Origin: Vicingaceae bacterium
GTDB lineage: Bacteria > Bacteroidota > Bacteroidia > Flavobacteriales_E > Vicingaceae
Reading direction: 5' to 3'
Assembly (NCBI GenBank): GCA_026003395.1
Contig: BPHE01000004.1
Span: forward strand, 1-64,000
Length of the DNA: 64,000 bases
Part shown: in pieces, positions 33,008-37,136 of the stretch
Numbering within the stretch: position 1 is the first letter of the stretch
How the letters are laid out: each line of letters starts with the position of its first letter
Made by a program: the position numbers and the translations under genes
The notes under the pieces: model-generated
Told to the model about the DNA's origin: nothing
What the model saw: only the letters and a program-made list of their open reading frames with translations
Databases searched by the model: none

Positions 33008-33970
33008 ATGAAACCTTCTAACGAAATTGAAGCTGTAGAGGCGTTAAAAGAAAAATATCACTCTCTCAAAAGAGAAATTTCAAAAGTAATAGTGGGACAA
33101 GAAACAGTGGTGGATCATGTGGTCAATGCCATTTTTGCCGGAGGGCATTGTTTGTTGGTTGGGGTGCCCGGGCTTGCCAAAACTTTGTTGGTGAATACGG
33201 TGGCAAAATCATTGGAGTTGAGTTTTAACCGGATTCAGTTTACGCCCGACTTGATGCCGGGTGATATAACAGGGAATGAGATTTTGGATGAAAAAAAAGA
33301 ATTCCGGTTTGTCAAAGGACCTGTCTTTGCCAATATAGTGCTTGCCGACGAAATTAACAGGACTCCACCAAAGACGCAAGCAGCATTATTGGAATCGATG
33401 CAAGAGAAAATGGTGACAGTATCGGGCAAAAAATATCCTTTGCCATCGCCATTTTTTGTTTTGGCCACACAGAATCCCATTGAACAGGAAGGCACCTATC
33501 CGCTGCCTGAAGCTCAATTAGACAGGTTTATGTATCTATTGTTGGTAGATTATCCTTCTTTTGAAGAAGAGGTGCAAATAGTCAAAGCTACCACGGGACA
33601 TTTTGAGCCGGATGTCAAGGCGGTAATGAACAGCGAAGATATTTTGTATTATCAACAGTTGGTAAAGAAAGTGCCTGTGCCGGATAACGTAATAGAGTAT
33701 GCTGTTGGGTTGGCGGTTAAAACGAGGGTAAACTCGGGAATAGCACCCGAAATTGTGAAACAATATGTGGCCTGGGGCGCCGGACCGAGAGCTTCGCAAT
33801 TTTTGATTTTGGGTGCGAAAGTGCATGCTTTGTTAAACGGTAAATATTCGCCCGACATAGAAGATGTCAAAGCCATTGCTTTGCCCGTGTTGAGGCACAG
33901 GGTCATCAGAAATTATAAGGCAGAGGCAGAGGGTGTTCAGGTAGACACGATTTTGCGAGAGATTTTATAA
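33008..33970 (+). CDS. MoxR-family AAA+ ATPase
   Basis: A 320 aa ATPase. Walker A is GVPGLAKT (52-59), Walker B VLADEIN with D114/E115. The sensor/MoxR segment is ATQNPIEQEGTYPLPEAQLDRF. MoxR ATPases act as chaperones for von Willebrand-domain proteins. In Bacteroidota moxR is usually followed by DUF58 and bat (VWA) genes; here it is instead followed by a GC-rich non-coding element and AsmA. It is the last gene of the guaB-PpiC-SurA run, 8 bp after surA. Confidence 0.94.
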   Translation: MKPSNEIEAVEALKEKYHSLKREISKVIVGQETVVDHVVNAIFAGGHCLLVGVPGLAKTLLVNTVAKSLELSFNRIQFTPDLMPGDITGNEILDEKKEFRFVKGPVFANIVLADEINRTPPKTQAALLESMQEKMVTVSGKKYPLPSPFFVLATQNPIEQEGTYPLPEAQLDRFMYLLLVDYPSFEEEVQIVKATTGHFEPDVKAVMNSEDILYYQQLVKKVPVPDNVIEYAVGLAVKTRVNSGIAPEIVKQYVAWGAGPRASQFLILGAKVHALLNGKYSPDIEDVKAIALPVLRHRVIRNYKAEAEGVQVDTILREIL

Positions 33971-33993: not shown

Positions 33994-34137
33994 GCGGCCG
34001 GCGGTGAGCGGATAGCCCGCAAGCACCGAAGCCCGTCATGCAGGGACTTGCAGCAGCTGACGGCAGGAAGATCGCTGCAGGCCCATGCAGGCCGTGGCTG
34101 AGGGGCGCGGACTATGAGCGAACCGCCGTCAGCCGCC
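33994..34137 (+). other. GC-rich (about 70% GC) structured non-coding element
   Basis: By hand count 101 of 144 bases are G or C, roughly double the surroundings. The ends pair: GCGGC-CGGCGGT (33994-34005) with ACCGCCG (34122-34128) and GCCGC (34132-34136), a 12-bp helix with one bulge. Inside are a GCGG/CCGC hairpin (34008-34020), a TGCA/TGCA hairpin (34039-34052) and a long stem CAGC, ACGGC, CTGCA (34054-34079) pairing with TGCAG, GCCGT, GCTG (34086-34100). I know no RNA family with this pattern. It may be a non-coding RNA or a mobile palindromic repeat. The strand is arbitrary. Confidence 0.6.
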
Positions 34138-34339: not shown

Positions 34340-35353
34340 ATGAAAAAGTTTTTGAAAATAGCTGCAATTGTTTTGGTATTATTGATAGGATTTGTTTTGG
34401 CAGTACCTTTCCTTTTTAAGGATAAAATTATTGCCACCGTGAAGGAAACCGTCAATGAACAATTAAATGCAAAGGTGGATTTTGGCGAGTTTGATATTAG
34501 CATTATCTCTACATTTCCAAATTTGAAATTCAGTATAGAAAATGTGCAGGTGGATGGAGTAGCCGAATTTGATGGCGTACGTTTGGCAGAGGTCGGCAGG
34601 TTGGATTTGGTGCTGGATTTAATGTCGGTAATTTCAGGTGATGAATATAAAATTAAAAAGATATATGTGAATCAATCAAAAATACATGCAAAGATTTTGG
34701 AAAATGGTAAAGCCAATTGGGATATTGCAAAAGTAGATTCTACAACTGTTGAAGAAGAAACGCCCGATACGTCATCGAGTCCCTTTAAGATGGCATTGAA
34801 AGAGTTGAAAATTGCCGATTCCTATATTGTGTATGAAGATTTGGAAGGGAAAATGAAGGCAGCAATTGGCCCGTATGAATTTGAATTATCGGGAGATTTT
34901 ACGGAAAACACCACCGATATGAAAATGAATTTTGTGACAGATACGCTGACATACGTCATGGATGGTATTCCTTTTTTAAATAAGGTTCGTTCGGAGTTTT
35001 CGGCCATTATTTTGACCGATTTGAAAAATTCGAAATACACGTTTAAAGATAATGTTTTGAAGATAAATGCATTGGAGTCGAAGTTTGATGGTTGGTTGGC
35101 GATGCCGAATGATTCGATAATGGAAATGGACATTAATTTCAGCACAACCAAAACTACGTTTAAAGAAATTTTATCGTTGGTTCCGGCCATTTACGCCCGT
35201 GAATTTGCTTCGGTCAAAACTGCCGGAAATGCCGAGTTGAAGGCCGTTATTAAAGGTCAATATACTGAAACGCGTTTGCCCTTTTTTGATATACAATTGT
35301 TGGTGAGCAATGCCATGTTTAAATATCCGGACTCTGCCCAAATCGGTCGATAA
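34340..35353 (+). CDS. AsmA-like protein, N-terminal part (frameshifted)
   Basis: A 337 aa product with an N-terminal transmembrane segment (residues 5-27), then an AsmA-type repeat-rich beta region (FSIENVQVDGVAEFDGVRLAEVG, FKMALKELKIADSYIVYED). AsmA-like proteins span the periplasm and are linked to outer-membrane lipid and protein homeostasis. The frame ends at 35353 shortly after MFKYPDS. The conserved continuation LPKSVDKIAIDL lies in the +1 frame, so one base (T at 35333) appears extra. The intact gene would run 34340-37136 and encode about 930 aa. Confidence 0.85.
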   Translation: MKKFLKIAAIVLVLLIGFVLAVPFLFKDKIIATVKETVNEQLNAKVDFGEFDISIISTFPNLKFSIENVQVDGVAEFDGVRLAEVGRLDLVLDLMSVISGDEYKIKKIYVNQSKIHAKILENGKANWDIAKVDSTTVEEETPDTSSSPFKMALKELKIADSYIVYEDLEGKMKAAIGPYEFELSGDFTENTTDMKMNFVTDTLTYVMDGIPFLNKVRSEFSAIILTDLKNSKYTFKDNVLKINALESKFDGWLAMPNDSIMEMDINFSTTKTTFKEILSLVPAIYAREFASVKTAGNAELKAVIKGQYTETRLPFFDIQLLVSNAMFKYPDSAQIGR

Positions 35354-37136
35354 AATAGCCATAGACCTGAAAATCAGTAATCCCGGAGGAAGTGAAGATT
35401 TGACGGTGATAGATTTGAGAAAATTTCATATGGAAATGGCTTCCAATCCCTTTGACATGACATTGTTTTTGAAAACGCCGGTTTCTGATCCGGAAATAAA
35501 AGCTTCGTTTAAAGGAAAAATAGATTTAAATACATTGAAAGATGTTGTGCCACTCGAACAAGGAGAAAATATCGGAGGGGTGATAGAGTCGGACATAGCC
35601 ATAGCAGGGAAATTGTCGGCACTGGATCAAGGAAAATACGACCAATTTAAAGCAGATGGCAGATTGGCTGTGATGGATCTTTTGTACGAAACACCTTCGT
35701 TGCCCTATGCGACTAAAATAAAAGAAATGGTTATGAACTTTTCGCCTCAAAAAGTTGAGCTTGTAAACTTTCAAAGTTATGTGGGGAAATCTGACATCAG
35801 TTTAAAAGGGAAATTGGATAATATCATTCAATATGCTTTGAGCGACAGTGTGACATTAAAAGGGCAATTTGAATATTATTCGCAATTGTTGGACATCAAT
35901 GAATTTATGGGAAGCGATAGCGATGCTGCAACGCCGGCCGATACGGCATCAGAGGAACCATTGACGGTGGTGGAAGTGCCAAAAAATATCGATTTTGTGT
36001 TGAATGCAAAAATAGACAGGGTGATTTACGATACATATGATATAACAAATGTGAAAGGCAACATGATTGTTCGCAATCAACGATTGAGCATGGAGAATGT
36101 TTCGATGAACATGATGGATGGAATGGTAAAAATGAGTGGTTACTATGAAACGGTCAATCCGGACAAACCTGCATTTGATTTTTCTATGGCAATTGTAGAT
36201 TGGGATGTGCAAAAAACGGCCACTACATTTAATACAGTGGAAAAAATGGCGCCTATAGCCAAATCGGCTTTCGGGAAATTTTCGAGCGAGCTATCGGTCA
36301 AAGGGTTGCTTGACGATAAGATGGAGCCCGTAATGAATACATTGACCGGAAAAGGTATTTTGACCACTAAAAATGTTGAAATAAAAGATTTTAAACCATT
36401 GGTTAAATTGGCCGATGCCATTAAAAAACCGGAATATAAAAGTTGGGCATTGAATGATGTGAAAATAAATTTTGAATTTAGTGACGGAAAAGTTGAAGTA
36501 AAACCATTCAAATTTAAATTGGGAAAAACGGAGGTGACGGCATCCGGCTATAATACATTCGAACAAGAAATTAATTATGATTTTGTTTTTGCCATACCAC
36601 GATCGGAACTTGGATCCCAACCTGATCAATGGGCTGCAAGTTTGACCGGCAAAACCGGATTGAACGTGAAATTGCCGGATATTATCAATATCAAAGCAAA
36701 AATGACAGGAACAATAAACGATCCTAAGATATCTACCGATCTGACTTCAATTGGAGGGGATTTAAAAGAACAAATCAAAGAAGAAGTAAAAGAAAAAATC
36801 GAACAAAAAGTAGAAGAGATTAAAGAAGATGTCAAGCAAAAAGCCAAAGAAGAAGCTGCAAAAATATTGGCAGAAGCCCAAAAACAAGCCGAAAAAATAA
36901 GAAGTGAAGCTCAAGCATTGGCCGAAAAAACACGAAAAGAAGGATACTCTGCCGCTGATGAAATTGAAGCAAAAGCAAAAAATCCATTAGAAAAAGCTGC
37001 TGCCAAGAAAGCTGCAGATAAATTAAGAAAAGAAACTGATGAGAAAGCCCAAAAAATCATTGATGAAGGCAATGTAAAAGCGGATAAAATTATTGAAGAT
37101 GCAAAGAGAAGAGCTGAGGAACTGGAAAAACAATAG
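35310..37136 (+). CDS. AsmA-like protein, C-terminal part (frameshifted)
   Basis: Continuation of the preceding AsmA frame; homology resumes at 35334, and the ATG at 35310 is not a likely natural start. The part up to about residue 480 holds the AsmA C-terminal domain (TGKGILTTKNVEIKDFKPL, LNDVKINFEFSDGKVEVKPF). The last 123 or so residues, beginning KEQIKEEVKEK, are an alternating Lys/Glu/Ala-rich probable coiled coil, unusual for this family. The 3' end overlaps the PorE-like gene by 38 bp. Confidence 0.85.
   Translation: MPCLNIRTLPKSVDKIAIDLKISNPGGSEDLTVIDLRKFHMEMASNPFDMTLFLKTPVSDPEIKASFKGKIDLNTLKDVVPLEQGENIGGVIESDIAIAGKLSALDQGKYDQFKADGRLAVMDLLYETPSLPYATKIKEMVMNFSPQKVELVNFQSYVGKSDISLKGKLDNIIQYALSDSVTLKGQFEYYSQLLDINEFMGSDSDAATPADTASEEPLTVVEVPKNIDFVLNAKIDRVIYDTYDITNVKGNMIVRNQRLSMENVSMNMMDGMVKMSGYYETVNPDKPAFDFSMAIVDWDVQKTATTFNTVEKMAPIAKSAFGKFSSELSVKGLLDDKMEPVMNTLTGKGILTTKNVEIKDFKPLVKLADAIKKPEYKSWALNDVKINFEFSDGKVEVKPFKFKLGKTEVTASGYNTFEQEINYDFVFAIPRSELGSQPDQWAASLTGKTGLNVKLPDIINIKAKMTGTINDPKISTDLTSIGGDLKEQIKEEVKEKIEQKVEEIKEDVKQKAKEEAAKILAEAQKQAEKIRSEAQALAEKTRKEGYSAADEIEAKAKNPLEKAAAKKAADKLRKETDEKAQKIIDEGNVKADKIIEDAKRRAEELEKQ

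Follow-up and report, generated by a model that had tools for sequence, protein, structure and literature searches.

The GC-rich block that lies between a moxR-type gene and an AsmA-family gene, in the 64,000-nucleotide stretch of Vicingaceae bacterium DNA analyzed here (hereafter “the window”), is a genuine element of an unexplained kind, namely a long-armed variant within the Flavo-1 superfamily. On balance, and with some reserve, we take it to be a non-autonomous dispersed hairpin repeat of intergenic DNA, part of a Flavo-1-like superfamily of Bacteroidota, that would act through one folded strand.

The block and its surroundings

An exact recount of the 144-bp block agrees with the preliminary description, which had counted 101 G and C bases, in a window that averages 36.4% GC. 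Of all 144-nt segments of the window it is the richest in GC (0.70), the next unrelated maximum being 0.54. The pairing of its ends was also correctly seen: GCGGCCGGCGGT (33994-34005) pairs with GCGGCTGACGGCGGT (34122-34136), with a small bulge. The block had been described as non-protein, and protein coding can indeed be ruled out, since a single ORF is listed there, 82 aa long, antisense and starting with TTG. The parts of the element and the neighboring genes are given in Table 1. According to the preliminary description, moxR operons of this phylum usually continue with DUF58/bat genes; in this window the next gene is of the AsmA family. That gene (34340-37136) has a frameshift near 35330-35353 and is thereby read as two ORFs (337 and 608 aa) that overlap. 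This is either a real pseudogene or an assembly error.

Table 1. Coordinates of the rod, its parts and the adjacent genes in the window
Feature	Position	Strand	Comment
moxR-type AAA ATPase gene	33008..33970	+	stop codon 23 bp before rod start
Whole rod element (GCGGCC...GCCGCC)	33994..34137	+	1 of 17 genome copies; folded strand = +
5′ arm, with the basal helices and the purine-rich internal loop TGAGCGGATAGCCCGC (Flavo-1 equivalent GAUUGAAGCGGAAAUCC)	33994..34037	+	
Long apical arm, not part of canonical Flavo-1	34038..34096	+	stem letters vary among copies, pairing kept
Nearly invariant apical loop AGCCGACGGCAGGAGGATCG (window copy: AGCTGACGGCAGGAAGATCG)	34055..34074	+	
3′ arm: GGACTATGAGCGAACC (Flavo-1 equivalent GAUUGUAGCGGAAAGC) and closing GCCGCC	34097..34137	+	
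AsmA-family gene (first part)	34340..35353	+	start codon 202 bp past rod

Dispersed copies in the same genome

The preliminary description had suggested either a structured ncRNA or a dispersed mobile palindrome, and recommended a search for intergenic copies in the same genome. Such copies exist. A BLAST search with the block found 15 of them, the others being 74-79% identical to the block, and a covariance model made from these added two more, giving a total of 17 copies of about 145 nt each. The apical core alone recovers the same 17. All are intergenic, their pairing is conserved, and their flanks cannot be aligned from one copy to another. With dispersion and conserved pairing both present, the condition named beforehand as refuting the proposal, a lack of further copies with conserved pairing, does not apply, and the two proposed readings were the right pair.

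The orientation of the rod relative to neighboring genes is not fixed, and no flanking gene recurs apart from a cluster of large secreted-type proteins. No target-site duplication was found at these copies, the junction words being 3.4 against 3.2 ± 0.3 in mismatched pairs. The Bacteroidota −7 motif TAnnTTTG occurs within 100 bp upstream of none of the 17 copies, and the T-run of an intrinsic terminator (at least 5, on either strand) is found at just 3 of the 17.

A single rod folded on one strand

The block folds at −80.4 kcal/mol, compared with −63.0 ± 4.2 in dinucleotide shuffles (z = −4.1). At least three internal hairpins had originally been drawn (34008-34020, 34039-34052, and 34054-34100), but MFE and covariation instead give one continuous hairpin, and the same long rod is present in all 17 copies. 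The internal loops and the apical loop are its most conserved parts. Fourteen of the 17 copies have the apical loop AGCCGACGGCAGGAGGATCG without any change, and both differences in the window copy form one compensated pair, C68-G79 being replaced by T-A. Two subtypes can be told apart by their ends, GCGGCCGGCGG...GCCGCC and GGCAGCCGG...TGCCCC. The apical loop (34064-34072 and equivalents) also holds AGGAGGATC (AGGAAGATC in the window copy), which resembles a strong Shine-Dalgarno sequence. In a phylum where such sequences play hardly any part this is unexpected, and is possibly a coincidence.

Fifteen copies from this genome, in a plain MAFFT alignment, served to measure covariation. In these copies 96.4% of cells are paired, 19 of the 39 pairs show two-sided changes, and 58 cells carry double changes. 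The covariation score of 0.284 contrasts with 0.083 ± 0.011 after shuffling; it is reached by 0 of 500 shuffles, and slid controls fall far lower. The mismatches are not symmetrical between the strands. Counted on a structure-fitted alignment, which favors G-U over A-C, the non-Watson-Crick cells comprise 20 G.A vs. 1 C.T and 4 G.T vs. 0 A.C in the genome's own copies, and the corresponding ratios in relatives are 47:5 and 43:19. Mismatch cells were counted instead of mismatches in the noGU fold, which are dominated by fixed motif positions. Since G.A takes the place of C.T at non-Watson-Crick positions, it is the strand as read here that is folded. In the genome's own copies the + strand also folds better than the − strand, by 4.4 kcal/mol on average. 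Both RNA and single-stranded DNA are in keeping with the surplus of G.T over A.C.

Homology to Flavo-1

No RNA family had been recognized in the block, and a direct Rfam search is likewise empty: the block has no match even at E ≤ 10, and the whole window has none except one tRNA. When RF01705 (Flavo-1) was searched for in the whole genome, there was no match at E ≤ 1e-3, and the window copy stays under the 42-bit threshold of the family. However, divergent homologs link the repeat to Flavo-1. Some copies from f3, f9, and f29 reach 25-40 bits against RF01705, still below its threshold, and one f29 copy (L121) aligns with Flavo-1 across an apical insert of 91 nt. A model, R2, was made only from the two arms of these bridging copies, with the copies of the window's genome and canonical Flavo-1 held out. 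R2 matches 12 of the 17 own copies, including the one in the window (23.9 bits, E 0.006), although the alignment sometimes covers just their 3′ half. It also matches 15 of the 25 canonical Flavo-1 loci. All of these matches, in both groups, are correctly placed, and there is no off-target match in 275 kb that include 12 unrelated loci and the rest of the window. The homology of the window repeat to Flavo-1 is well supported, and the repeat falls outside RF01705 as that family is defined.

Flavo-1 RNA and the window repeat have in common a closing helix, the purine-rich internal loops GAUUGAAGCGGAAA / UUGUAGCGGAAAGC, the form of a single rod, an intergenic position, and their occurrence in Bacteroidota. 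In the window the paired purine-rich motifs are TGAGCGGATAGCC / GGACTATGAGCGAACC, and thus agree with those of Flavo-1 in form but not letter for letter. The two differ in length, the window copy having about 145 nt where the Flavo-1 model has 76 positions and a short apical stem. They differ as well in the apical arm of about 70 nt that carries the nearly invariant loop, and in the 70% GC of the window copy. RF01705 itself was found in 108 of 295 genomes of the class, with at least 15 copies in many of them.

Distribution and evolution in relatives

The core is absent from the other genomes of the same family (0/45). Across the class, 395 genomes were sampled: divergent copies are numerous in three genera of another family, f29, and weaker copies occur elsewhere; the copies in relatives form the same rod with arms of different lengths. 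An exact 22-mer scan for the core in GTDB contigs gave 0 matches. The 12 matches to a gapped core pattern in these contigs were judged to be due to chance, several of them reading PDGRRI inside genes. Viral contigs, phages, and plasmids were searched, and yielded nothing credible.

Two sister species of one genus (G288 and G311) carry orthologous rods that differ at 3-7 of about 155 positions (2-5%), while 14-32 of 80 bases (17-40%) differ in the flanks. The rods diverge less than their flanks, and therefore the fold is under selection in place. Such purifying selection fits better with a host function than with a purely selfish repeat. It also bears on the idea that the copies are neutral quasi-palindromes, that is, dead MITEs or REPs whose arms are matched by hairpin-templated replication errors copying one arm. 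That the genome's own copies show double changes but almost no G-U intermediates is in keeping with this idea, as are L034 and L036, in which perfect 20-bp arms consist of differing letters. Yet template switching does not preserve loops, and here the internal and apical loops are the most conserved parts; moreover, in relatives the flanks of orthologous copies change several times as fast as the copies themselves. Neutral decay is already disfavored, and we regard it as highly improbable. In the same two species, another dispersed repeat of about 280 bp, with dozens of matches per genome, adjoins the rod (L160, L161).

No empty insertion site was caught, all tested sites of G288 and G311 being occupied; at the site of genome G372 that was compared for this purpose, synteny breaks and contigs end. 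G372 holds about 50 rods that are 90-98% identical, and the copies examined lie mostly inside an element of 520-610 bp (L083, L086, L202-L221). This element is present in dozens of copies, is non-coding, has imperfect inverted ends (CCCAAAATTGTCATTAGA...), and bears the rod at its 3′ end. Such near-identical rods inside a larger element mean that rods can ride a recent burst. Neighboring rods in f29 are in opposite orientation in 10 of 10 pairs (L083, L086, L089, L095, L104, L105, L111, L114, L115, L117).

In f29, of 30 genes that converge on the rod's 3′ end, 26 have their stop codon no more than 60 bp away from that end, as against 6 of 18 (p = 3e-4), which hints at a positional role. The rod could then be a boundary or 3′-UTR element that follows stop codons; its role, as proposed for REPs, would be to end or insulate transcription or to shield the 3′ ends of mRNAs. 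The window copy, which begins 23 bp past the moxR stop, would suit such a role. However, no rule of rods abutting stop codons with their 3′ end was found in the window's genome, where 7 of the 17 copies sit between divergent genes and no 3′ end exists, and where T-runs are few. In f29 itself, the transcribed strand would be the strand that is not selected for folding. Taken together, this makes a boundary function improbable.

Comparison with other repeat classes

Like the REP/BIME sequences associated with RAYT proteins, the rods are dispersed, intergenic, GC-rich imperfect hairpins in many copies with no genes of their own. REPs are 20-40 bp long, mostly with a GTAG or CGTC tag (PMC3733652), whereas the window repeat has about 145 nt and ends that differ between its two subtypes. 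A RAYT partner was rejected as far as testable: the single Y1_Tnp of the genome has no rod nearby, and has other inverted repeats. The Y1/RAYT-like transposase (154 aa; L043, G000:C5:40295-40639 and flanks) is accompanied by its own hairpins, TACCATAATGTCGCCCC / GGAGCGAAATTATGGTA, which are unrelated to the rod. No reverse transcriptase (PF00078), the mark of a retroelement or group II intron, is present in the genome, which is about 98% complete. These searches, for the Y1 transposase and for reverse transcriptase, identified no mobilizing enzyme for the rod. As for integron attC sites, the rod copies are dispersed and not arrayed, and the genome has two full-length tyrosine recombinases. MITEs are similar in being short and non-coding, with paired ends and AT-rich insertion sites, and in G372 the rod lies inside the inverted-end element of 520-610 bp. 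The rods of the window's genome differ from MITEs in that they show no target duplication, and arms that covary around conserved internal loops are not known as a feature of MITEs.

Folded DNA or RNA

Flavo-1 was proposed as a likely RNA without a cis-regulatory role (Weinberg et al., 2010; PMC2864571). The window repeat might accordingly be a structured RNA, its copies being transcribed from their own promoter or by read-through, and the + strand rod acting in trans or as a processed sRNA scaffold, with a protein bound at the G.A internal loops and the apical loop. The covariation with invariant loops, the asymmetry of mismatches (G.A over C.T and G.T over A.C), the better folding of the + strand, and the purifying selection in relatives all speak for such an RNA. 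But G-U pairs make up just 0.6% of paired cells in the genome's own copies, the −7 motif is lacking upstream of all 17, T-runs are few, and the orientation to neighboring genes is free. In addition, published transcriptomics of F. psychrophilum placed Flavo-1 matches on either strand of transcribed regions, without distinction, and often elsewhere than in such regions (PMC9723704). An RNA is thus possible, but we give it limited credence.

In the model that we prefer, that of a hairpin repeat acting through one folded strand, every copy of about 145 nt forms its long rod on a single strand. This rod combines the G.A-rich basal internal loops common with Flavo-1 and, on a long variable arm, the nearly invariant apical loop of the window's genome. 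A trans-acting protein may recognize the loops on the folded single strand, and such recognition in trans would let the letters of the arm drift while pairing and loops stay. The bare rod would itself be mobile in this genome, new copies inserting into intergenic DNA without target duplication and then being retained for their fold. The action could take place at the DNA level, on a single strand exposed in replication or repair, in a REP-like manner. Because there is no promoter-like motif (0/17), T-runs and G-U pairs are rare, and orientation is free, we judge it somewhat more likely that the repeat acts as DNA than that it acts as a transcript. More tentatively, Flavo-1 and its long-arm relatives could all belong to a widespread class of dispersed DNA elements of Bacteroidota and not be RNAs, the window's genome having a long-arm subclass in 17 copies, each working as folded single-stranded DNA whose loops are read by a dedicated protein.

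Significance

Since 2010 Flavo-1 has stood in the catalogs as a candidate RNA with no function attached to it. The interest of the window repeat is that it allows Flavo-1 to be re-read as a dispersed, fold-conserved repeat, which falls within a larger superfamily of such multicopy repeats; the members with short arms are all that Rfam captures. This re-reading widens the questions to single-stranded DNA, a binding protein, and mobility, besides RNA. A multicopy set with strong covariation, orthologs in sister species, and the recent burst in G372 are now at hand to address them.
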